Positions 1 through 53,500 of a stretch of DNA of 64,000 bases are shown piece after piece. This stretch comes from Henricia sp. BOLD:AAB3569 (Eukaryota > Echinodermata > Asteroidea > Spinulosida > Echinasteridae), in assembly GCA_037783545.1 (NCBI GenBank), contig JBBELK010000166.1:153591-217590 (forward strand), read 5' to 3'. The notes below the pieces were generated by a model. The model was not told the DNA's origin and did no database searches. It saw only the letters and a program-made list of their open reading frames with translations. The position numbers and the translations under genes were made by a program. The number at the start of each line of letters is the position of its first letter. Position 1 is the stretch's first letter.

Positions 1-3000
1 ACAGATTCCCGGAGTTGATTAGAGAAAAGCCTCTGACAAACGGTTTGTAAATACTCAGGAGTTACCTGGGGCAAAGCAACAAGAACATAGCAACTACTAG
101 ATATACCTAAAATTTTAGAGCCAAATGTTAGTTTTATTTCCAGCCGTATGACCGTGTGATACACAGTTTATTCCTGAAGTTTATTACTGCAGTACTGCAT
201 CAAATTCAGCTCTGGGGCCGATTTCACTAACGCTTTGCGATGATCGCTAATGCCCAAATCAATCGCTAAACTCGAAATCCATCGCAGTTTAGCGATCAAC
301 TTCGAAGAGCGATTTCACAAAAACTTAACGATGGCGTTGGCCATCGCTAGTTGTTATTTAGCGATGAATATTTAGCGACGACTAATTTGTCATCGTAAAT
401 GGAAACATTCATCGCTAAAATACAAATTCGCGCCATTTTGATTATTATTTTGAAGGTTTGGTGATTTTCAGTGCGTCTCGAAATGGCGTTTCAGTTGTTG
501 TACATAAACAATGCAAGAGAATTACAGAGAGAGAGGATTTTCAGGGACAGGACAAATCCTCTGGATTCATACAGTGACAAAAAGATGCACAAATATTATT
601 TATGAGTATTTGACAAAAGATACTATTTATTCAGGTTATGAAACAAAGTTAAACATAACTCTGAAAAATCGAAAATAAAATGTTCACACAAAGTCCGAGG
701 AACCGAAGCAAGTTCCACCGTGGACGTTCCACCGTGAACAGTCTACCGGACAATGTCACATTTAGACCCACGGTACACACACGTTGCCCGCCCAAAACCG
801 GTACAGTGCTGTGGAACTACAATTGTACGTTCGTGAAGACAAACCATGAATGTCAGCTCCTCTACGGAAAACAGAAAAACCCATTCGGTAGTCCAGGCTG
901 TCCAGTGAAATCTTGAGCAGAAAATGAGAGATATCTAAAGCAAAAAGCTGTCAAGTGAAGAGCGAATCGTTTCCGACAAAGTCGTGAGTATCGTGCGATA
1001 GTGAACGGCTGGTAAAGCGTATAACTTGACTATTGACAGTTTTTATTAATTTTAAGCTTTTGTGGTTAATTACGGGATATTTTGACTATCTTTTTTTACA
1101 AGGACCATCAACAAAATTATTGTCAAGGATGCTGTATCTCTAAATTACGTAAGCAGCAGGCCTGTGTGTACCTTTAACCAACCAGACCGATGGGTGACCT
1201 ATACCGTAGGTCTTCTCCCCACGACAGTCACTATAACAACGACATGCATCAGTGAGCACACCACAGGATTAGGATTCTATGCCTAACCACGCCCCCAGCA
1301 TCCAAGCCAGTCCACTTCAGTGCACACATTGTTCCACTATACATGTGTAGCCCTGTATCACCACGAGTCCAGTAACTCTCCTGAAGACGAAGGGACGGCA
1401 CATTGTTCGAAACGTGGAGTTCACACTTACCGGTTCTTTTCAGAACCGCACATCTTCAAAAGAGATATTTAACATTGTGCAACCACAAATAATTTGCACA
1501 TTAATTTTCACCATGCATAGCCCAAAGTCTTACTTAGTCTTTAAAGTGCCACCTTCTGTATTAATTTATCATTAAATTAAAACATCACTCACCGGATTAC
1601 CACTGATACAGCTCTCCAAAGAGTCGACCAGTTCAGCAGTTATTCCGATTAAGTTGTGGTAGTCGGCCTGGAAATTACACATTAACAAAATCTTTAAATT
1701 TGGCCAACACAACACACGAGTGGGTTTAAATAGGTTTTTTAAATTAGTTACATTATGGGATTGTTTGGCTCCCAAGTCAAGCACAAAGCAGGAAAATGAG
1801 TTTTATTAATAATTTGAATTTATATTTTGCCTCGGAAATCATCAGAAGTCAATTCTACCTGTAGTTTATTGTAGCGTTTAATGTACGTCATACATCGCTT
1901 CTCGGCTTCTACAACGTTGTGTTGAATCTGGTTCATTTGTTCCGAATTTTCTGCAAATAACGTTCACAAAAGGCAACATTAAATTTGTTTTATTCTTCCA
2001 ATTTCATATAATCTGTGGAATCCATCAAGGAAATAAACAATATGTGACCCGCTCTGCAAAAACGGGTATTAAGTCGCGCTGGCTAGTATTCTTTTTGCGA
2101 CCATAAAAAGAAATCCGCGGCAAATCCACGCTCAACAAAATACCAAAACACAATGGAAATTCCTGGCGGTGCCCAGATACCGCCTGGAATGTCTGTGTTC
2201 CCCCTGGAATGTCTGCGTTACGCCTGGAATTTCTTTTGTGTTTAGGTATTTTAATGAGCGTAGAAATGCCACAGATTTCTTCTTATGGTCGCAAAAAGAA
2301 TACTAGCCAGCGCGACTTAATACCCTTTTTTGCAGAGCGGGTCACATATATAGGTCAACTATTTCACGCAAAAAATAATAAACAGAAATATACTCACTGT
2401 TGTTCAAATCTTGCTGTTGACAAACAAGTTAAGGAAGAATAAGTTTTTACAACTTTTAATTTTAAAATACATTACATTATTTCCAAAATTTTAGTTCATG
2501 ATTTGACGAGAAAAACCGACTAAAAGTGTTGATAGAAATGGTAACAAACACCACATGATCTGTTTCGGTGAAAATTGTATTACCTTTAATGGAGAATTTG
2601 CCGACTGAAATTCGTTTGCAAAATTTGTTTTTTTACCATTAACGGCCAATTTTGGGCAATTCTAGGAATAAAAACATTTTAAATCAAAAGAAAGACATCA
2701 ACAAACTAATTCGTTTTGCCGGTCTTGGATGAGTGTTTCAAATATGTGACCCGCTCTGCAAAAAAGGGTATTAAGTCGCGCTGGCTAATATTCTTTTTGC
2801 GACCATAAAAAGAAATCCGCGGCAAATCCACGCTCAATAAAATACCAAAACACAGTGGAAATTCCTGGCGGTGCCCAGATACCGCCTGGAATGTCTGTGT
2901 TCCCCCTGGAATGTCTGCGTTACGCCTGGAATTTCTTTTGTGTTCAGGTATTTTGATGAGTGTAGAAATGCCACAGATTTCTTTTTATGGTCGCAAAAGA

Positions 3001-6000
3001 CCTTTTTTTGCAGAGCGGGTCACATATTTGTTCTCAGTCGGTCGCGTACTCTGTGGCTCGCGTCATGCACTCTCATCTGTGGTGCGAGTCATATGCGTGT
3101 GTGCGCAACCCATAAGCCCATGTCACACGAGGCAATTTACAGGCAATCAATTCCAAGCAATTCGCATTACAATTTTCACATTATTTTCTTTGTAATGTTG
3201 ATACATTGTCACAAAAATGTCTTTGTAGCATGCAGTGCTGTAAGTTGCCTCCAAGTTGCTTGTAAAAACTGCCTCGTGTGACTAGGGCCTATAGAGTTAA
3301 AAAATACATTGCGTTGGAACATGTATGGATACACACGCAGTAAGCACATTTTCGCTTTCTATCAACACGATTCGTAAAATTTAGTTTGTTCTCCCAAAGG
3401 ATACGTAAATCTCAAAAAGCCTCGGTTGAGGATGAGCCGGTAGCGTCAACATCAGAAACTTCTCCAGTCGCAACTGAAGGTCAGGCACCCAGGAGTCCTG
3501 GAACAGTTCCTTATAGGATGGATGCTTAGTCGGGTCAGGTACAAACGGAAGGGCGTAAAATGGCAAGAATTCTGTCGTTTGGCCGAGGACAGCACCTCGG
3601 GATTCCAGGAATGTCTTAAAAGCTAGCATTGAATCTTCCACTTTAATCTTGCTCTGGAAAATCAAGTAAAGATGAGAAAAGCCCAATCAAGGGTTTATCC
3701 GGGGTACCGTGGCCGAGCGGTTTGGGTCATTGACTCGCAATCATAGGTGAAAACTTGGGGTTGCGGGTACCTGTGCCCTTGGGCAAGGCACTCAACTACA
3801 CTTGCTCCATCTTTCGGAAGGGATGTAAAGCCGTTGGTCCAGTCTGTTAGGTAGCGGTAACGCACTTTAAAGATCGCAGAGCATTCTTTCGTGAAGAGCA
3901 AGGGGATACCCCGGTGTCTCTGCCCATTTATAATTCTAATTCTTTATGGGTTTCCTCACACTTGCGAGTGACAGTGCAATGAGCACTATTAAGGAATCCT
4001 TATTATGAATACCAGAAAGAAATAATAATAATAATATAGATATCACTTAATGCTGCAAACGGGCGACCCACCAGTAAAACTTTGCCAGACGACCACCAAA
4101 ATTTTGGCTGGAAGACATAGATTGGACACCAAATTTCTGTACCCGAAGCTTCCAAAAATGGTTCCATACCCAAGAGAGACGGTTCTAGACCTAATAAAAA
4201 TGGTTCTCGATTTTTAAAAGATGGTTTTTGACCTAAAGAAAATGGTTTTTGACTTTCAAAATATTGGGGCTACGCCAAATTGTCGCCCTAACCGACCGCG
4301 TCGCCCTTATATGACTCTCTACACAAAAAGTGTCGCCCCATTGGATAAAATAGAGAAATAATAATAATCCCTCTGTTGGGCTTCCTAAGCAGTGAAGAGC
4401 AACTGCACTACCGTGATTCAAGACCACCAGTTGGCTTCATCATAGCTCAATTGGTAGGGTGTCTGCACATTAGGCAGGTCCATGGTTCGAATCCCGGTGA
4501 ACCTAAGGATGCGACGTTTAACCGGTTAACCGTTTGTTTTGGTAAAACGAGGTAAAATGCTTTAATTAATAGGTAAGTTTTACACAAGAATTACAACCAA
4601 CCTTTTTGCCTGTGCTAAGTTGATACTTGATGGGGTAAATGGCGAAGTAGATGTTGAGATAAAATTCCACTTTCTTACAGACCGGGTCGTTGGCCTTTAC
4701 GGTCTGAGGTACGTTCTCATCCCAGAGTTGAAAGAACTCCTTGCGCGCTCCAACTTTGAACATGGAAAGTATGTTGGACTGATGGAAAAGCAACACGGGA
4801 ATCAAGAAATGAATCAGGGTTCTCCACTAGCATCCTCTTGCAACAGTGCCCCTTTAACGCACTCCCTAACTCCTGCGTACAGTGGCCCTGTTGAAAAAGG
4901 CCCCATTTGGCGGTGGGACTAGCGACAGAAATCTTGTCGCCTCTGCTAGACCAATCAGGACGCTTGCAGTGCATTGTAGCACGATTGCAGGCATTCAAAT
5001 GTAACGCGCACAGATTGTAAACACCGTGCATGCATGTGATACATGTACTCGGTAATGCTGGCCGTTGTCCTCGTCGGCGATTGGCTGCTATTTAAAGCAT
5101 ATTGGGGAATCCCTTCCATTACATTCGTCAGCATGCATCCCTGTTATTAATTTGAGAAACTGCGGAGTAAATAAGGTTCGTCGTTTGAAAGTTTGGTAGG
5201 AATGGGACAGTCATAAGGAACGGAACCCAATACAATTTCTGGAAAGTATAGAAATTGTTTCTTTTCGGCATAACATGACCGAATTGATTAAATTACATCA
5301 AAATGACTCGGGCGTGAGTTGGCTCAAGACAACAGCCGGATCGCTCCACATATTTGCGTGTATTTCCTCAGGGTATTGTCACGTCGCTTTGCAAAGTAGA
5401 AATTCCCTGAGATCTCAGGATGCTCCACTAGGGGCAATTCCAGAAATTCAAATTTACACTTCCGAGACTTTGAGTGCTTGTAAGGCACAAGGTCAAAATA
5501 GAATTGGTCTGTATACCGGTAAACGATTCAAGTTAATCCCTCTTCAAATCGTTTCTCTGTTGACAGAAAACCGTGGGACGGTTTTAAGGGAACCGTTTCC
5601 AACTTGCTAGGTTGGTCGATGATTGACAGGTTTACAACTAGCCGCCTGCACGAAGGGAACAAAAGGCTGCTACTGGCCGACGACTTCAAAGGGAGCCGCC
5701 CGACCCTCCAGCCGGGCGTGCCCCGGGGCATGAATGGGTTGTGGTTAAACACCTTTGTTCGGGTGGTCACGTGATAAACAGTGGCAGTGAGTCAGCCAGG
5801 AGTAGTCACACAATGGCCCGTAATCCGATAAGCTCTCTATTGTTCAGTGAACGTGGGCCGGGTTGAACATTGCCAATTATCTATCATCTGGCCAGACAAG
5901 TTGAATGGTTTGCTTGTTCACTGAAAACCGTGCAACATTGTTTATGTACTGTTTCCCGGTATACAGACCGTTTCTATTTTGACCTCGCGTCTAATGCTTC

Positions 6001-9000
6001 ACGTATTCAAGTTGTTTGATTTTAAACACATGTTCTTCAAGCATCATTGATGGAAATGTAATTCCTGAAAAACTAATTGTAATGCCATTCTCAATATGCG
6101 CGGTACATCCGAAACCGAGGGTTTTGGGGACCCTATATACACACTTACTGAAAGTGGCATTGCAACATTTTTTTAGGAATTACATTTCAATCAATGATGT
6201 TTGAAAAACATGTGTTTAAAATCAAACAAAAGTTTGAATATATGAAGCATTACAAGCCCTCAAAGTCTCTGAAGTGTAAATTTGAATTTCCGGAATTGCC
6301 CCTAGTTGTTTTGTTTGGCACGCCCCAAGACAAAAATATCAGAGGTACCGTTAGCCTCTAGCCCAATAAATTAGGCGTTACTGCACATATGCTGATGTCC
6401 TTCCTCGTAAATTGAGATCATCTCGGCACACAATGTTTCTATCTTTGTTTTCCCGCCCAGAATCACCACATTCCCGGAAAATTCATTTCTTTCATAATAC
6501 AATGAATTTTTACCTATCACCTGCATAGAACTGCTTGAAAAATTTCTTTGAATAAAAGGCTGTAAACGGAGAGAATTGACAGAACAATTATTTATCTGGC
6601 ACCGATTCAGAGTCGCTCAAAATGGTGGATGCTAGCGCACATGCTCAGATGTCAAATATCTGACATGAGCTGCGTTCAAGCATTTGGGTCTTTCTGTAAA
6701 TTAGGGGTCCAAAAGTGTGACATTTGGTATCCCCCGTTTCCTGATGTGTTATTTTTCGTACAAAAATCATTAAAATGGCTTTTAAACCATTTTGTATGAA
6801 TTGTACTTTATGTACTCACTCTTTGAGATGGAAAGTATTTAAAGAATGTGTCCTGAATTTACAAAAACAAGATGTAAAATGTAACGGGGGACACCAAAGC
6901 GGGACCCCTAATTTATAGAAAGACCCATTTACCCCTTGGAGCATACTCTCACTGACCCGAGTTTCATTATTATTGCTGTTCGCGTGCACAGGAGTATACT
7001 CGTGTTAACACAAGTACACGCACGAATACAGCCCAGGCCATACGTGTCCACCACTTTGAGCGACTCTGAACCAGTGCCAGAGAAACAATTAACGCCTAAT
7101 TTATTGGGCTTCGTTAGCACCCAGACAAAAAATTGCCACCCTAACAAAAAACTCGGCCACCCAGAAAAAAATGTTCCCCTCTAAAAACCTTCAGGTGACA
7201 AGTCACCAAATATGATTCGCTGGCCACTGGTGTCATTATAAAGTAACGTATGGCGGAGTGGTTTTGTGCATTGAATTCAAGAGCATGCCTAATAGACAGA
7301 TCCAGTAAGCTCCGCCATTTTGGAATTGACCAATGACAGCCTCAGGTTGAGGTAACCAAAAAGTGGATTTCCATTTTGGTTACCCGAGTCCTCAAAATTT
7401 TGTGCACAGAGCTACGGCAAAATGCAGCACGAGTGACGCAAAAACACCATAAACATCATTTTTGTCAGCGCAGAGGACCCTAGCCGGTTTAAAACGGATT
7501 GTATAAGACTTTTCTAACCTACTTTTAATCCCTTCATAAATGTGTTTTTAAACGGGAAAAACTCACCAAAATTAGCTTGTCGTTTTGCTATGTTGTGCAT
7601 TCACTGCGTTCTAGATGCGTGTCGAGATGTTTTTGTTCGACCGTTCGCGTTACGCGTATTGCAGGCGTGTTGTACGTGCACGCACACGACCGGATACTTA
7701 AAGGGCCTGTGACATCCTAAACAACTTTGTGCCTAAGCTTTGCTTCATAATGACGGATTACTTGTTCTGCAAGACTTACTATTGTTCGTTTGGATGTAAA
7801 ATCAATAAAAGGTGGCATTTTTCAACTTTGAAGATTTCATTGCAATAAATCACAGACAGAGGGCGCTGTTTTGAGTGCATCACATAAGGAAGACAGAAGG
7901 GAAAAGTTAAGAAAAAACATAAGACTTCAAGTTGGACTTGTGGCAAATTGCTGCAGTTTCTACGCTCAGTTTTGTCATGGTTTACAGCAGGCAACATGTA
8001 AAACAAACTCAAACAGCCATGGATCACAAAAGTTTCAGGAAAATTGAGAAAAAAGTGGAATCTTTTGTGCACTGTTCAATGTGATTTTCCTGTGTTTGCC
8101 TCTTGTGACGTCGTGACCTTGGTCATGAATATGCATATTTGCATTAGCATAAAAACTAAAAACCTTTGTTTTAACCCCCAAAGCAAGCTCCAAATAGGAT
8201 TTTTATGACTTTAACCGAGTAAAGTGGTTTTAAAGCATAGATTTCATTGATAAAAATCCTAAATAAGTGCACATTTTGCTTTCGAGCGTGCAGTTTCTGT
8301 GTGCGTGTTTTAATACGCGCTGACCAGGGCGCGGACGCTGACGCAACTCTACTGCACGTGCCTCACATGTGTGGTGTGTTGCTAGGCAATTTTTAAGTGG
8401 GCGGAGCTTACTGGATCGGTCTATTCCGCGGTCGTGAGTTCGATTGCCAGTCTAAACCATGGTGCGTGTGCCCTTGGGTCGGGCACTTTGGAGTAAATGG
8501 TTACCTGCAAGGGTTGCAGCCTTTGAGTGCTTGTGTCAGGCTGCCGGGGCTGCATACTCCCCAGGGTAATGATATTGTAAAGCAGCACGAGTATCTTGCA
8601 GGATAGTGTGCTACATGTGTGCTTATCGACACCCTAACCTGGTGAACAGGGGGATTATGGTGTTCACTGCGTGAGGGCGCTGCTCAGCACGCCCACCCCA
8701 GACAAGTTGTTGATGAGTGGAGAATTAACACTGCTAACCTGTAAATCCTTTTTCTTCATATCCCATGGTCTCTTGACCAAAGGTTTCAGTGGTTTGCCTC
8801 TCTCTCTAGTCTCCGTCTCAAAAGTTTTCAAAGTTGCATTAAAGGTGCAGAATTCCAAGTACTGTAAACAAATTAAAAATTAAAAATTAATAAATATACG
8901 AAATTGTTTCCATCAGTAAAATGTGATTGATTACATTCAGGAAAATAATTGCTGCATTAGACTTTTGCATTTCAGGAAAATGAGGAAAAATACAGTCAAT

Positions 9001-30222: not shown

Positions 30223-33200
30223 TCAATCCTTGTTCTCAGAGGTTTCTGCTGGTGTGCTTTCTTCACCCTGGCCAGACGGAGTTCCCTGCAAAAAAAAACA
30301 AAATTACTTTTTAAAGAGTTGTTAAGATCTTTCCAGAAAATGTATTTCATTCTAACCTAACAATTGTATAAAATATCTTCCCAAAATACTATCCAGGGGT
30401 TGAGATTTGCATGGATTTCCAAAATTTTACCGACACGTCTGGATTTGAGAGTTTTTTGTTTTTCATTGTGAAATGTCTGATTTTTAGCGGATTTTGGTTT
30501 TTTGTTGTGCTTCACGATCCACATTTTATTTTCCAACTTTTTTGCCCTTCCAGCAGACCATATTTTTGGTAATTAGCGCCCTCAATTAACATAGGCATAG
30601 GAGGAAGGGGGTATAGGAGGAAGGGGGTGTGGGGGAAAAGATATCAATTTTCCCACCTTTTCCCCCCCAACCCCTACTTTTTTGCCTCCCATATATGATG
30701 TAATTAATATTTTTTCGGCAAAATCATGGTACTATCGGCAACAATAAAAGGTTTATGAAACTAATACAACACCGCTGTAGCAACGCCAGGGCAACGGCAA
30801 TGCTATTACGTTATATTAATGTACGTCCATACAAGCGCCATCTTTGCCCCTCCGCTTTCGCTTCACCGTCTTTAATGATCATTTTTGCCTAGATTTTTTT
30901 TAATATTATCTATATTTGTACAAGGTAAATATTTAAAACAAAAATGGTTCTTGTTATACCTGGTTAAAATTTTTTTGACATTGCAATTTGAATGATGGTG
31001 GTGTTTAAAACGATCCCAAAAGTTGAAGTCTTCATGGTCTCTACATCTCTTCCCGCCCCCTCCCCTAAGGAAGCCATGCCCCTCCCACTTTGTTTTTCCT
31101 CCGGAATTTGTTTTCATCTAATCTCACAAAGGCATTCTTTTGTGCGTGTTCATCCTTTGCTTCTTGTTACTAGACTTGTGATGGACTCGACTACATCCCT
31201 GCCATTTAGATATCGCCCAACTTTATTGGGTGGAACGGATCAATAGCAAAGTAAAATGCATGTTACGTGAAGGCAGCAGCCAACCGCAGTTGAGACATTT
31301 TTTATCATGTTGGGTCGTGTGGACGAGCACATCCATGCAATGCCTAGTGTTTTAAAATTTGTTGTAACTTAGTTACATTATTATGATCATCATTCATGAA
31401 GAAATGTAGTTAGTTTTGCATTTGCTCGTTTCAAGATTGACCTTTGTTTGAATAAGCCTAAATTACTGTAGGTAAAAATTATTGGTCTGACATGACTCAT
31501 GACTAGCTACATTCTGTCACAGTGCAGCGCTGAAAAATAGACAAGAAACCAGTCCGTACGGTGAACTGTCGCTCGTGCGAACGTACACGAACGGAACTAA
31601 GTTAGAACGTCTTGCACAAAGACTCTGCAAGCAACGTCCGAACAAGCAACCTTACCTCTCCAACCGAGTCTGTCTTCTGGGGGCGCGAACCCTGCGGTCC
31701 ACGTCTACGATAACGTCTACGTTGAGGGGGACGGTCGCCTTCCTCGTTCTCCTTGTTCTCTTCACCGCCGCCTTCTTCGTTTTCTTCCTGGCGACGAGGG
31801 CGCCTGTAGTTTTGATAGCGCGGACGGTAGCGGCGCCGATTATTCGCAGGTTCACCGTCTTCGTCTTTTTCACCTTCCTCTCTCTGATGGTTTGAAATTG
31901 TCCAAGAAAATAAAAGTTTCATGGATTGTCAATTGAAACATTTTTTTTATTGGCAGCGAAGCACCCATCATGTTAAATTCACAGAGCCGAACACAATACA
32001 GTATCTGTCTTTTTTAGGCCTAGCGTACATCGACATTGCAACTGGAAGCAACTCAACTGACCAGTTTCTGTCGATGTGTGTGCAACAAGCGGCAACTGGG
32101 AGCATCTAGCCCTTTCTACATTTCTAGAGCGTGCACATCAACACGACAACTCGGTAAAGCCTCGAGTACATTGACCTTGCAACTGGAAGCAACTGTTGCT
32201 TGCAATTGCTTTCGATGTGCGCGCTCGTGATTAGATGCACTAGTTGCAAGTACATCGACAGCAACTGACCGCAACTGGGTACAACTAGTTGCCAGAAAGT
32301 AGAACATGAGCAACTCGCAGCAACTGGGATTTTTTCAGTTGCCAGTAGTTGCAAGTGCGTGTACATCATCCTTTTTAAGCAACTAACCAGTTGCCGCGAG
32401 TTGCTTCCAGTTGCTAGGCTTTAAAGAACTATAAAAAATTTCATGAACCCCTGCAAGACATGGTTTTGTTTACAGCATCAACGTCATCTCTCATTCCGTC
32501 TCATAATGTAAAATAATCTGACAATGAATTTGCTTAATCATGTCAATATCACATTTTTTACCGCCACCGTTTTTCCCATGGGTGTTGAAATTTAATACCA
32601 TGTCATTTGTCACATTTTTCTGATTACCATTCTGAAATTTCATGCTCTCAATCCGTATATTTCCAGGGATATCGTCAAAAATCCACCAAAGTTTAGTAAA
32701 ATAATTTATCCGTTCCATAAAGCAAAACAGTGATACATCAAACTGTTTGCTTCCACATCCAAATTGGGGATTGCAAATTTTCTGTTTTCGTCCCATGGAT
32801 AGTATTTTGGGGAGGTATTTTATATGATTATTAGGTTAGAACAAAATTAATTTCCCTGGAAAATCCAGGCAAAAATCTCATTTAAAAAGTTAGAAAAATC
32901 CCATGCACGAAAACAACATTTCTTGGGTTTCAGATTATGATATCTGCTAAGAAACCTCACCTTTTCACCCCCTTCGTCTGATTCTGTCGGTGGACGACGG
33001 TAGCCGCGGTTTCGATATCTACCACGCCCTCTCCCTCTACCCCTGCCGCCGCCTCTCCCGCCCTGCCGGGGAGACCTCTCCTCGGCGTTATCCCCTCCAT
33101 CGGACGTTTTCTCTCCTTCCCTATCTTCATCTGCATCGTCCGCAGGTCGACTTCGGTAATAGTTGCGGCGACGGCGGAATCGACGTCTATCTGGCGCATA

Positions 33201-36200
33201 CTTGCTACCCTGGACCGCTTCGCCGTCAGGTCCGGTTACATTGGTAGCCTCATTTCCCTGGGGCATTCATAACAAGGAAAACTCATTACAAGAGACGTTC
33301 GAGAAGCGTACAGAGCGTGATCCAATTTAGAGGGACGTCCCTCACGTGAGGGACGGAAATTAGGAGACAAATGCCTTTCCTTAGTCAATACAACAAATGA
33401 AAACTAAAGTGAACCTGTACGTTTACCTGCTACTGATGTTAATACACACACCCAGTTTATCACATGTTGAAATTGACTTTACAGTTTGATTATGCAGAGG
33501 TTGTTTTTATGCGCGAGGGACGGACAATTAATAAAATTGACAAAAATTACCATTTGTTTACATGCATTTTCAACTACTTCTTGAAAATGTGATGGCACAG
33601 TGTGCCCAGGCAAATTTTTTTTTCTTAACTTTTGTAATATGATTGTCAAATTTTGACATTTCTTTACTGTTCGAGGTATTATTTTGATTAATTTAAGAAA
33701 TTTGGAAATTTTAATCCAGTGTTTACTAGTTTTGGATCAAATTCTACACTGTGTTACACCACTACACTGTGTTACTGGTTAAAGTGCTAAAGTTACTTGG
33801 TTAAAGTGCTAAAGTTACTTGGTTAAAGTGCTAAAGTTACTGGTTAAAGTTACCTTTCTTCCAGCCAGCACGTCAAACTCCACGCTCTCTCCATCCCCAA
33901 GACTGCGCAGATATTTCTTAGGGTTGTTCTTTATAATCGCAGTCTGCAGTTAAAAAGTAATTTTAGGAAAACCAAAATGAGTGTACAATCTTACAAGTGT
34001 ACAAAATATATTACCTGAAAAAATAATCAGGTAATGGTAGTTTTCTAAGAAAATATTCAATATTTTTATTTTATTTTTTGTGATAATAATCCGATTACAT
34101 TATTATATGTTGCATGTGTATTGTAAGAAAATGAATAAAATAAATACAAATTTACACATTAATAAATGTTTGGCTGAAAGTGCCTGTTATTGGTAAACAG
34201 TGCTAAAAACAAGAGTTCCTATTTTGGAATTTTTTTACTGATAAAAATGTCTTTTTTTCTCGAAACTGATATCACAATTTGAGACCACGTACTACCTAGA
34301 GGTGTTCCATAAGGTAAGTTCTACCAGCCTGTAGATGTAGTGGGTGTTGAACCAACTCCTAAACTAGAGGGTTTTTCAGACTTTGCTCCTGGACTATGAA
34401 GTTGATCATGCTTTTAGACCTTATGTGCAAAACATATGACAATTTTCTAAGTGTTTCCTTGAAAAACATTTCAATTTTTCCCACTCAAAATTTTGGGTTT
34501 TTCCATCAAATCTGCACATTCCAATGCTAGATAAGTAATTTCAAAGTTGCACTGTCCGTGTTTGGGTGAAACGATTACAAAAATTAATTCACACAAGTGA
34601 ACGAACTTAAAAAGCTTGCGTGTCTCTGTCTGTAACTAAAATTTAAAAAAAAAATTTAATTGTTGACATTGGGAATTGGAGATACAAGCCTTTTTCTTGA
34701 AACGGACTTCACATGTTGTACTTGTGCGCGTACGCTCATATGTACATTGTATGTGAAGAATTTCAGAAAAGAAAAAAATGTAGTCCGGGCATTACCTGGT
34801 GTACAAAGATGTCTTCTTGTGTGTCATCTCTGAAAGTTAAAAAAACAAACCAAGTATTTAGTACATCAAGAGCAATGATTAGACAAGCAACAAAAGCTGG
34901 GTGAAATCATTAAAAGACATTACATTATCGGAAAACTTAAAATACAGGAACAACAGCATTACATACATTGTAACTAAAGAATGATGTTAACTACATGTAC
35001 CTCGTAGAAATTTCAGCCACATAGAGAAATCACTAGAGAAGTCGCTTTGTTCGACGATGATTTTACGATGATTTGACAAAGATTTCCTGATGTGAACGCA
35101 CGCCTCTTCATTCGACAATGATTAGAATAGCTTCATTCGATAAAGCAAATAGCTTCATTCGATGAAGCAAACTTGTAAAGTGAACGGCTCCCTTCGTTCG
35201 ATGAAGCAACTTGGCGGGCCTGTTGCACAACAGCGTTGTGCGTCGAGCGCCTAGCAAGAGTTGTTTTTGACGCACCGCTGGAAACAACACAGCATGTCTA
35301 GACGCTTTAAGCCGAGCACTTGATGCGCGACGCACATGTACGACCTTCCACGGCTTCATTCGATCTTCGTTAGCAGTCTCTCTTTGTTTGATCTTCGTTA
35401 AGTGATATATGAACGCACGCTTTATTATCTACCGATGATTAACTACATAATCTTCGTCGAACGAAGCGATTTCTCAATTGAGAACGGGGTCATAGATGCA
35501 TTAATACCTTAGAAAACCTGAAAAATCCATGTATGTTTTTGTGTTGAATCAATGATAAAAAAAATGTCTGCAGACAATTATTGTTTGAATCTGCTACATG
35601 TAAGTGGGAGAGCATGCAGGCATTAAGCAGTGTTCTACATGTATAAACTTGGTTTTTACCTGTTGATGAATCCATAGCCACTGCGTACGTTGAACCACTT
35701 CACGGTGCCAGCGACTCCACTGGCTGAGAAAAAAGGACAGCAGTTTTTTTTTACACTTTTGGAATGATTGAGCACACTCACAACTTACATTGTACTTGTA
35801 AATACCGGTACATGTACATGTACCTTCAGTTCAGATAACTCATATGTACCTTTGCCATGGCAGGCCTGTAAGGTTTTCCTCAAAGATTACCATGCATGGC
35901 AGGGGTCGAATTTGACCTAAATTGCATGCTTGTCAGAAGGACCAGTAGATTAGAGAACTCTACTGGTCCTGCTAAAAATTTGGTGGTCCACTGGTGCTGT
36001 TTAAAATAAAGACATACATGTATCGCTTTCGTTCACAACACTGGACAACAACATCAGTTACGGTCAGACTAAAATACCGTGAGGAGATTGGGCGAAGTGG
36101 CGATCAGGCAAAGTGGCAATAGGGCAAAGTGGCGAAGTGGCGAAGACCCGGGAGAGGGGGGGGGGGGGGTTGTTGATCGCTCTGTATATGCCGGACGAAC

Positions 36201-40312: not shown

Positions 40313-40587
40313 TTTCGCAATGGATTGTGGTCTCGAAATGACGTTATTGGACTATTCCAAATTGTACACTCTCGGAGGGGTGGACGTTTTTTCTGTTGAC
40401 GGAGGAAGTCCCTCTTAATTTATTTTTATTCCATTCGTTATTTTATCCCGGTATTTTATATTTATTTATTCATCTTATCTAATATGTTTTTACCAATTTT
40501 TGCCATGGATACAGCCGCATTAGTATACATTAGAAATATTTCAAAAACTCACAACTCCGGATGAACTTGGGATTAGAGAAAAGTGCT

Positions 40588-40660
40588 TTATCGGGATTCG
40601 AACCCGAGACCTCTGACTCATTGGGCAGGAGCTCTGCCAGTTGAGCTCTAATGCACAGTT
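40588..40660 (-). repeat. tRNA-like sequence (SINE head or tRNA pseudogene)
   Basis: In reverse: TTAGAGCTCAACTGGCAGAGC (A box/D arm) and TCGGGTTCGAATCCCGA (perfect T arm). The acceptor stem does not pair. A further partial copy of the right half, with a decayed B box (GAGTTCGAAACC), lies at 40754-40800. Confidence 0.6.
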
Positions 40661-50500: not shown

Positions 50501-53500
50501 AATATGCTAGCAGGTGACGAAATTTTAATAAATTGTGATCGTTTTTAGAGATTATTATGCATGTATTATATATTGTAAAAAAACATTTTAGTCGTGTTGT
50601 GCCCGGAAGCTCAGATTTGACCTTTGCCGCGAGACTTACATAGTCTATATAAACATGATGACCGTACAAAACTTCCCCTGAAATGGTTTTGTCTAAAGTG
50701 CTATAGTCTTTAAGAAATTCTAGTTTTCGTCTCATGAGACTGTTTAACAGTGTTGTAGTCGAGTCACCAATATCGATTCCGAATCTCCAGGGGTAGAAAT
50801 TCACTCCAAAAATTACTTGCGCCTTGTGCAAGTTGGCATTGGAATTAACTTGCGCTTACAAAATACTTACTTGCGTTAAGATGACAAGTCGTCAGAAGCT
50901 GAATTCATTGAAGTAGGTCAACTTGCGCAAAGTGCAAGCTTGTGTTTTGGGTTACTTGCGTTCGTTAATTTTTACTTGCGTTGCGCAATCACTTTAATGG
51001 GAATTTCGAGCCCTGATCTCGAGTCAATAGCCTTGAGTCCGAGTCACAAGTCACTTTCCTCGTGTTCGAGTCACGAGTCACTTGTTCGCCATAAAATTGA
51101 ATCTATTATAGTTTCGTCTGCACAATATGTAAAATGATGTGCTACATACAGTATGTGCTACAGTCTACATATTCTCGCATCCGTTTTTTACCAAAGAATC
51201 AGGAGTCACCGTGTTCGAGTCCGAGTCACCGTGTCCGAGTCCGAGTCACCGTGTCCGAGTCACCGTGTCCGAGTCACCGTGTCCGAGTGTCCGAGTCCGA
51301 GTAACCGTGTCCGAGTCCGAGTCACCGTGTCCGAGTCCGAGTCACCGTGTCCGAGTCCGAGTCACCGTGTCCGAGTCCGAGTCACCGTGTCCGAGTCCGA
51401 GTCACCGTGTCCGAGTCCGAGTCACCGTGTCCGAGTCCGAGTCACCGTGTCCGAGTCCGAGTCACCGTGTCCGAGTCCGAGTCACCGTGTCCGAGTCCGA
51501 GTCACCGTGTCTGAGTGTCCGAGTCCGAGTCACCGTGTCTGAGTGTCCGAGTCACCGTGTCTGAGTGTCCGAGTCACCGTGTCTGAGTGTCCGAGTCACC
51601 GTGTCCGTGTCCGAGTCACCGTGTCCGAGTCCGAGTCACCGTGTCCGAGTCCGAGTCACCGTGTCCGAGTCCGAGTCACCGTGTTCGAGTCCGAGACACC
51701 GTGTCCGTGTCTAAGTCACCGTGTTCGAGTCCGAGTCACCGTGTTCGAGTCTCAGTAACCATTTTCGAGTCTCAGTAACCATTTTCGAGTCTGAGTCACC
51801 ATATGACCATATGTCACCATATTCCAATGTGACTCGAGTCGAGTCCGAGTCACAAATAGTGACACGAGTCGGACTCGAGTACAGGACTCGAGGCCTACAA
51901 CATTGGTGTCTAATACAGAATTTGAAATTCTCTCTTCACAGTTAATTAATATAGACGACGGTTTTCTCTCACTCATGCTGGATGATGGGACCGTCCGTGA
52001 TGATATCAAGCTGCCAGATACCGATATAGGCAAGGAGATATCCACAAAATTTGACAATGATGACAACTTTATGGTGAGTGCTGGTATTCATACATGTATT
52101 ACATCATCTTGCAACAGTACTGCTTTAACGCACTCCCCTATTCGTGCATCCCAAGGCCCTGTTGAAATCTGCCCCATTTCGCTGTGGAAGCAGCGACAAA
52201 TCTTGTCGCCCTTCTGGTAACGTTGTACGGAGAAAAATAAAATATAAGGAAAAAAATATGGGCGCCAGTATTTTTATTTTCAACTCGTAAAAATAAACTT
52301 CGCCAAACATAGGCCAACTTGAGTCTTGGAAAAAGGGCAACAAGGTGCCAAAGTTGTACACAAAGCAATTGGGGCTGAGTCGGTTTGGGAACGAGTTTGT
52401 ACATAAGTCAATTAGGGCCAAGTTGGTCTGGGGCCGAGTTTGTACACAAGTCAATTGGGGCCGAGTCGGTCTGGGGCCGAGTTTGTACACAAGTCAATTG
52501 GGGCCGAGTCAGTCTGGGGTGGGGTGGGGTGGCGAAATGGAAAAATAATGAAGTAGTCGCGATCGTCGCTTGCATGCCGCAAGTGAGAGAGCAGACGATA
52601 ATGATGATGATGATTTCCTATTGGCCGAGCACGCACTCGCAACGATCTACCTGTACCTTGCTACATGTACGTGCTGAGCATGCAGCGCCCTCGAGAGATA
52701 AACACATTCACTACTTGAGGGCGCTGTTCATAAACAAATGCATGCAACTTTCATGGCCGTTATATCGACGCTAATGCGATAGATTTGCGTGTTAAGTGAT
52801 CGATAATAGCAAGCGCATCATGTTTGGTGAATTTACACCTCATTTTGGAATGACTTGGCTGCATTATCACAGTGTTTTAGACGGTAAAATTAAATTTTGT
52901 CCGGGTGGCTAAGTTTTTTGTCCGGGCGGCAAATTCTTGTCCGGACAAAACCGGCAGTTTACATTTGTCCCTTTAATACATGTACAAGATTCTTAGGAAT
53001 TTGTTTTCCCATTGGACTCTGGTGGACTCTGACCAAATCTCCGAGTCCGAGTCCTGACTGGCTTGAAATTCGTGACTTGAGTCCGGACTCGCGTACAGCG
53101 CTGGACACCAATTGAGCCTTTTCACCAGAGGCCATGACAGGGGGCAGGTTTTCATTTTAAAATGTGACAATAGATCCTACTCGTGCCAACTCGTGCATGA
53201 CGCATGGTGACAATGTGACTGCACAGTGTCATGGCCGCTCGTGCAAAGGGTCCATTTATTGTGCCACAGGCTTGCAATGAACCATCCTCTTGCAACAGTG
53301 CCCCTTTAACACACTCCCTAACTCCTGCGTACAGTGGCCCTGTTGAAAAAGGCCCCATTTCGCGGTGGGACTAGCGACAGAAATCTTGTCGCCTCTGTAG
53401 GACCAATCAGGACGCTTGGCAGTGCATTGCAGCATGATTGCAGGCATTCAAATGTAACGCGCGCAGATTGTAAACACCGTGCATGCATGTGATACATGTA

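Follow-up and report, generated by a model that had tools for sequence, protein, structure and literature searches.

A predicted 16-nt exon adjoining a putative U12-type intron in the ARMC9 gene of Henricia sp.

The minus strand of the window analysed here, a 64,000-nt stretch of contig JBBELK010000166.1 from Henricia sp., carries the gene ARMC9, and its reading frame passes through an exon of only 16 nt (CAAGATTTGAACAACA; 2398..2413, minus strand), which encodes QDLNN plus one base. Judging from the sequence, we consider it highly probable that this exon is constitutive, with the intron upstream of it being removed by the minor spliceosome and the intron downstream of it by the major one. The exon is most likely a constitutive, frame-critical element rather than a switch-like neuronal microexon.

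Human ARMC9 is linked to Joubert syndrome. The locus had been assigned to this gene in a sequence-only reading, and the assignment holds: the spliced stretch matches the Pfam family CTLH_Armc9 (PF23138) with an E-value of 1.3e-48, and a tblastn search of the window and 30 kb of contig beyond it, with a reconstructed human ARMC9 query (also the source of the human protein in all comparisons below), found collinear exons matching human residues 17-627. The numbering of this query agrees with the published positions of Glu201 and Arg299, given as c.601 and c.895 in the available text of PMC8855066, and with c.1878 as the end of codon 626. The model comprises 18 exons and 17 introns, with a reading frame that is open throughout. 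From the place of human c.52 onward, the exons of its first half measure 123, 177, 249, 16, 92, 75, 87, 38 and 109 nt, followed by 99, 91, 124, 140, 77, 75, 91, 56 and 111 nt up to the place of human c.1878, amounting to 1830 nt between these two places, compared to 1827 nt in human. The 38-nt and 56-nt exons were looked for because the phases of their neighbours do not match without them, and were chosen by splice scores and by similarity to the reconstructed human peptide. A partial search for the first coding exon did not find it.

Within the window, all on the minus strand, lie the 123-nt exon with the LisH region (8739..8861; domain name as in the available text of PMC8666550), the 177-nt exon e0 (4602..4778), the 249-nt exon A (3405..3653), which covers the final portion of the CTLH-like domain region, the 92-nt exon B (1859..1950), which is preceded by TTATTTGCAG, the 75-nt exon C (1593..1667), and part of exon D (1..65), which continues off the window to a total of 87 nt. 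Exon A is present as a single copy in the 740.7-Mb genome and is open in one frame only (3653-3405), its last codons, GAG ATT TAC, being followed by GTATCCTTTGGG. Searches for the encoded protein yielded no relative in the PDB (best E-value 0.075), no NCBIfam match below an E-value of 0.05 and, as expected for an animal gene, no confirmed relatives in viral and prokaryote contigs.

On re-reading the region, the coordinates and motifs given earlier proved correct, as did the claim that exons A and B cannot be joined directly: exon B starts in phase 1, and a join of 3405 to 1950 therefore reads KIRNK, with a stop at the sixth codon. Translation bore out that the 16 nt at 2413-2398 restore the frame, and the resulting junction aligns to the human protein without a gap over 141 positions, in line with the exact spacing that had been proposed. 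Between the two exons, 21 in-frame candidates of 3-60 nt are available, only one of which is 16 nt long; it ranks first both by U2 scores and by the sum of branch-site and donor scores, and none of the other 20 combines a strong U12 branch site with a donor as good. As controls, we drew 2000 stretches at random from the part of the window past position 9000, and not one of them (0/2000) had a candidate that combined a branch score of at least 10 with an equally good donor. When candidates were judged by U2 scores only, one of equal quality was present in 363 of the 2000 controls at any length and in 30 at 16 nt; as these scores are not exceptional, the case rests on the U12 signals and on the frame. 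Direct in-frame joins of the flanking exons, of which there are 15 in the scanned ranges, all score -1.2 or less.

With 16 nt, the best-ranked candidate falls, at the sequence level, within the size class of microexons, defined as exons of 30 nt or less in the available text of PMC7821500. Because the length of the exon is not divisible by 3, its omission gives a frameshift and a stop, so that the exon must be included and cannot act as an in-frame switch.

The intron between exon A and the 16-nt exon (2414..3404, minus strand) is 991 nt long, lies in phase 0 and is of the U12 type by its donor and branch-site scores. Both minor-spliceosome hallmarks attributed to it earlier were confirmed as perfect consensus matches. 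Its 5' splice site, GTATCCTTT (3396..3404, minus strand), corresponds to RTATCCTTT at 3404-3396 with zero mismatches, and its branch site, TTCCTTAAC (2428..2436, minus strand), corresponds to TTCCTTRAY, with the branch A at 2429, 16 nt ahead of the first exon base. This distance is within the range of 10-20 nt reported for U12 branch sites, although longer than the optimum of 11-13 nt (PMC8199999, available text). On approximate splice-site matrices, the intron scores 15.9 as a U12 donor, -2.1 as a U2 donor and 13.7 for the branch site. Among the 17,784 GT/AT sites on both strands of the window, the GTATCCTTT donor scores highest, and a branch-site match this good, at a distance of 8-22 nt, is found at only 2 of 6,500 AG sites in the window. 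RTATCCTTT itself occurs twice in the window, compared to 1.39 expected occurrences, and TTCCTTAAC occurs once exactly and 11 times with one mismatch allowed, compared to 21.5 expected; the short motifs alone are unremarkable, and it is their placement at the exon ends and their co-occurrence that carries weight.

None of the other 16 introns of the ARMC9 model is U12-like: their U12 donor scores do not exceed 1.1, and partial branch-site matches at other acceptors score no more than 8.0 within 8-22 nt and 8.9 when distances of up to 40 nt are allowed. U12-type introns characteristically lack a polypyrimidine tract; here, the branch site is followed by TTGTTTGTCAACAG, and the acceptor still reaches a U2 score of 6.4. 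The phase of the intron counts against the minor-intron reading, phase 0 being a minority of about 22% among minor introns according to the available text of PMC10639083.

The downstream intron (1951..2397, minus strand; 447 nt, phase 1) is of the U2 type. It begins with GTGAGT at 2397-2392 and scores 6.8 as a U2 donor, 4.5 at the acceptor and -17.9 as a U12 donor. A palindromic, MITE-like repeat lies inside it (2039..2349), and a second copy of this repeat lies inside the U12-type intron (2741..3028). Of 3,943 genomic candidates for further copies, 40 were scored, and these yielded at least 39 further places with 97-99% identity to the repeat. The RNA fold of 1951-2349 has an energy of -230.7 kcal/mol (z -23.6), and each copy has arms complementary to those of the other across the 16-nt exon.

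Several components of the minor spliceosome were recovered from the genome: six matches to U11 RNA on two contigs, two to U4atac RNA and one to U6atac RNA, as well as a gene for the U11 protein PDCD7. The U11 RNA has the 5' end AAAAAGGGT, whose nucleotides 3-9 are able to base-pair with +3 to +9 of the donor, with one G-U pair among them. A family search for U12 snRNA, in which 44 of 89,056 candidates were scored, returned none, and U12 sequence patterns with mismatches allowed were found at 0, 1 and 0 places, the single place not being U12 by Rfam. An exact U12 14-mer is present at 76 places, compared to 7 for its reversed control, and 20 of these became loci; the flanks of 18 are copies of one repeat, the other 2 lie near tRNA genes, and Rfam identified no U12 among the 11 of the 20 to which it was applied. 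As three partner RNAs are present, we take the missing U12 snRNA as a gap, though it does count against the minor-spliceosome reading.

In the mechanism that we propose, a single U11/U12 particle would bridge the intron, its U11 base-pairing to the donor and its U12 to the branch site. This bridging would set the acceptor at 15-16 nt beyond the branch A and leave exon definition hardly necessary, and U1 would take the GTGAGT behind the 16-nt exon. Contacts between the minor spliceosome and U1 across exons have been described (PMC8329584, available text); a 16-nt exon would leave little room for such a contact, making recognition across the intron the likelier route.

Four other explanations were weighed against this reading. 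The 16-nt exon could be real while its upstream intron is spliced by the major spliceosome, the U12-like motifs being coincidence or relics. We regard this as very improbable: as a U2 site, the donor reaches just -2.1, compared to 4.5 to 11.3 for the other scored donors, and it matches the U12 consensus perfectly, as does the branch site, even if the U2 score of the acceptor (6.4) is in the range of its neighbours and U12 snRNA was not found in the genome. Still less probable in our estimate is a join of exons A and B without the 16-nt exon, through the cryptic acceptor AACCAG|ATT in exon B (first base 1927), which would make the protein 13 residues shorter. The score of this acceptor is -3.5, the best U12 branch site near it reaches only -2.6, and the join opens a gap relative to the human protein. 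It is in frame, however, and leaves the Pfam score unchanged, at 165.2 bits with as without the 16-nt exon; this score cannot judge the junction, because CTLH_Armc9 ends before it. The least probable alternative is the use of a different small exon, such as the 25-nt candidate at 2661-2637, which is second by U2 scores, with 11.2 compared to 13.1 for the 16-nt exon. It would add three residues relative to the human protein, and its U12 branch score is -2.7, although the GTATCCTTT donor would need such a site.

The exon, or a slowly spliced minor intron, might also constitute a regulatory switch, with retention or omission lowering ARMC9 in some cells, to which we assign as slight a probability as to the cryptic join. 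According to the available text of PMC8329584, splicing of minor introns is slower or less efficient, which would suit such a switch. So would the immediate stop that results from omission of the 16-nt exon. Omission would, however, be expected to need a U12-type donor paired with a U2-type acceptor, which makes retention the likelier failure.

For human ARMC9, the published exon naming allows a comparison of exon counts. On NM_025139.6, c.51+5 is named IVS2+5 in the available text of PMC11276581, and the intron after c.1878 is named intron 20 in that of PMC8855066, so that human exons 3 to 20, 18 in number, span the stretch considered here. As the Henricia stretch has 18 exons only if the 16-nt exon is counted, human ARMC9 probably has a 16-nt exon as well; otherwise, an extra human intron would be needed elsewhere in the stretch. 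A deletion of 124 nt, c.1211_1334, and a splice variant, c.1474+1, have been reported in human (PMC8855066), and the deleted 124 nt and the following 140-nt exon, which extends to that splice variant, match two Henricia exons in length and phase. The hg19 positions of c.443 and c.601 are 10,045 bases apart (PMC8855066), placing an intron between them. From the exon counts, human exon 6 is probably c.598-613 and would contain the reported stop variant c.601G>T. The 16-nt exon is probably ancestral.

It is conceivable, though on balance doubtful, that the 16-nt exon, together with the minor intron before it, is ancestral and that the two have been kept as human exon 6 and intron 5, that recognition of the minor intron as a unit let the exon survive, and that ARMC9 is a direct target linking U4atac defects to Joubert syndrome. 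Mutations in U4atac are said to cause Joubert syndrome, among others, in the available text of PMC13216214. If this ancestral reading is true, human intron 5 should have a GTATCCTT-like donor and a TTCCTTRAY branch site, and if the human intron is of the U12 type, ARMC9 would tie minor-spliceosome defects to Joubert syndrome. A human 16-nt exon 6, if present, would be easily missed by short-read alignment.

The arrangement had been called unusual, and this applies to the pairing, while a microexon and a minor intron are each of a known kind. The interest lies in the combination of the two in ARMC9, together with its probable conservation to human. A search of one open-access library returned no on-topic paper on ARMC9 with a U12-type or minor intron, and passages there on microexons and minor introns describe none in which a microexon adjoins a U12-type intron, although an earlier listing in supplements or U12 databases is possible. 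The locus thus offers a natural case for the recognition of a 16-nt, frame-critical exon next to a minor-spliceosome intron.

Set against known systems, ARMC9 resembles the ciliary genes with minor introns described in the available text of PMC13216214 in that a minor intron resides in a gene of ciliary function, but differs in that the intron is here typed in Henricia, not in human. With the neuronal microexons of the SRRM3/SRRM4 programme, the ARMC9 exon shares its size. In contrast to these microexons, its upstream intron is of the U12 type and its 16 nt, not being a multiple of 3, break the frame if omitted, leading to the stop at the sixth codon. Finally, the intron is akin to U12-type GT-AG introns in its GTATCCTTT donor, its TTCCTTAAC branch site, its short branch-to-acceptor distance and its single occurrence among major introns, but stands apart from them in its phase 0, the rarer state according to the available text of PMC10639083, and in bordering an exon of just 16 nt.

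Of the minor-spliceosome snRNAs, U11, U4atac and U6atac were all detected in the whole genome (740.7 Mb), unlike U12 snRNA, which was found there neither by a family search, scoring 44 of 89,056 candidates, nor with sequence patterns. One exact 14-mer from the U12 search occurs at 76 places; 20 of these were fetched, and 18 lie inside near-identical copies of a single repeat (L023-L033, L035-L041), many copies of which are grouped on few contigs. The reading of this repeat, GGDFNCNID, resembles a retrotransposon endonuclease. U11 is present in three copies per contig on two contigs, C82 and C261 (L002-L004), and U4atac in a single copy on each of C117 and C1195 (L016, L017), as if in each pair two haplotypes had been assembled separately; exon A of ARMC9 (249 nt) occurs only once in the genome. 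Outside the window (L020), the end of the minor-spliceosome protein gene PDCD7 is present in tandem copies (C1191, 57351-58312; C194, 5551122-5551938), seven on one contig and six on the other; the repeat unit measures about 140 nt, and 5 of these 13 copies contain a stop.

Within the window, the introns on the two sides of the 16-nt ARMC9 exon each carry a copy of a palindromic, MITE-like repeat (2039-2349 and 2741-3028). Among 40 places scored of 3,943 candidates, 39 others in the genome are 97-99% identical, which suggests that the repeat has been active recently.

Elsewhere, the tandem open frames with SESPCPS/RVRVTV units at 51133-51561 (+) are probably a minisatellite. The element at 40583-40655 (-) is possibly tRNA-derived; despite its 36-bit tRNA-family match, ARAGORN called no tRNA there. 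An Arg/Gly-rich open frame lies at 32850-33266 (-); 102 of its residues are without a match in Pfam, and it resembles the tail of a Y-box protein.
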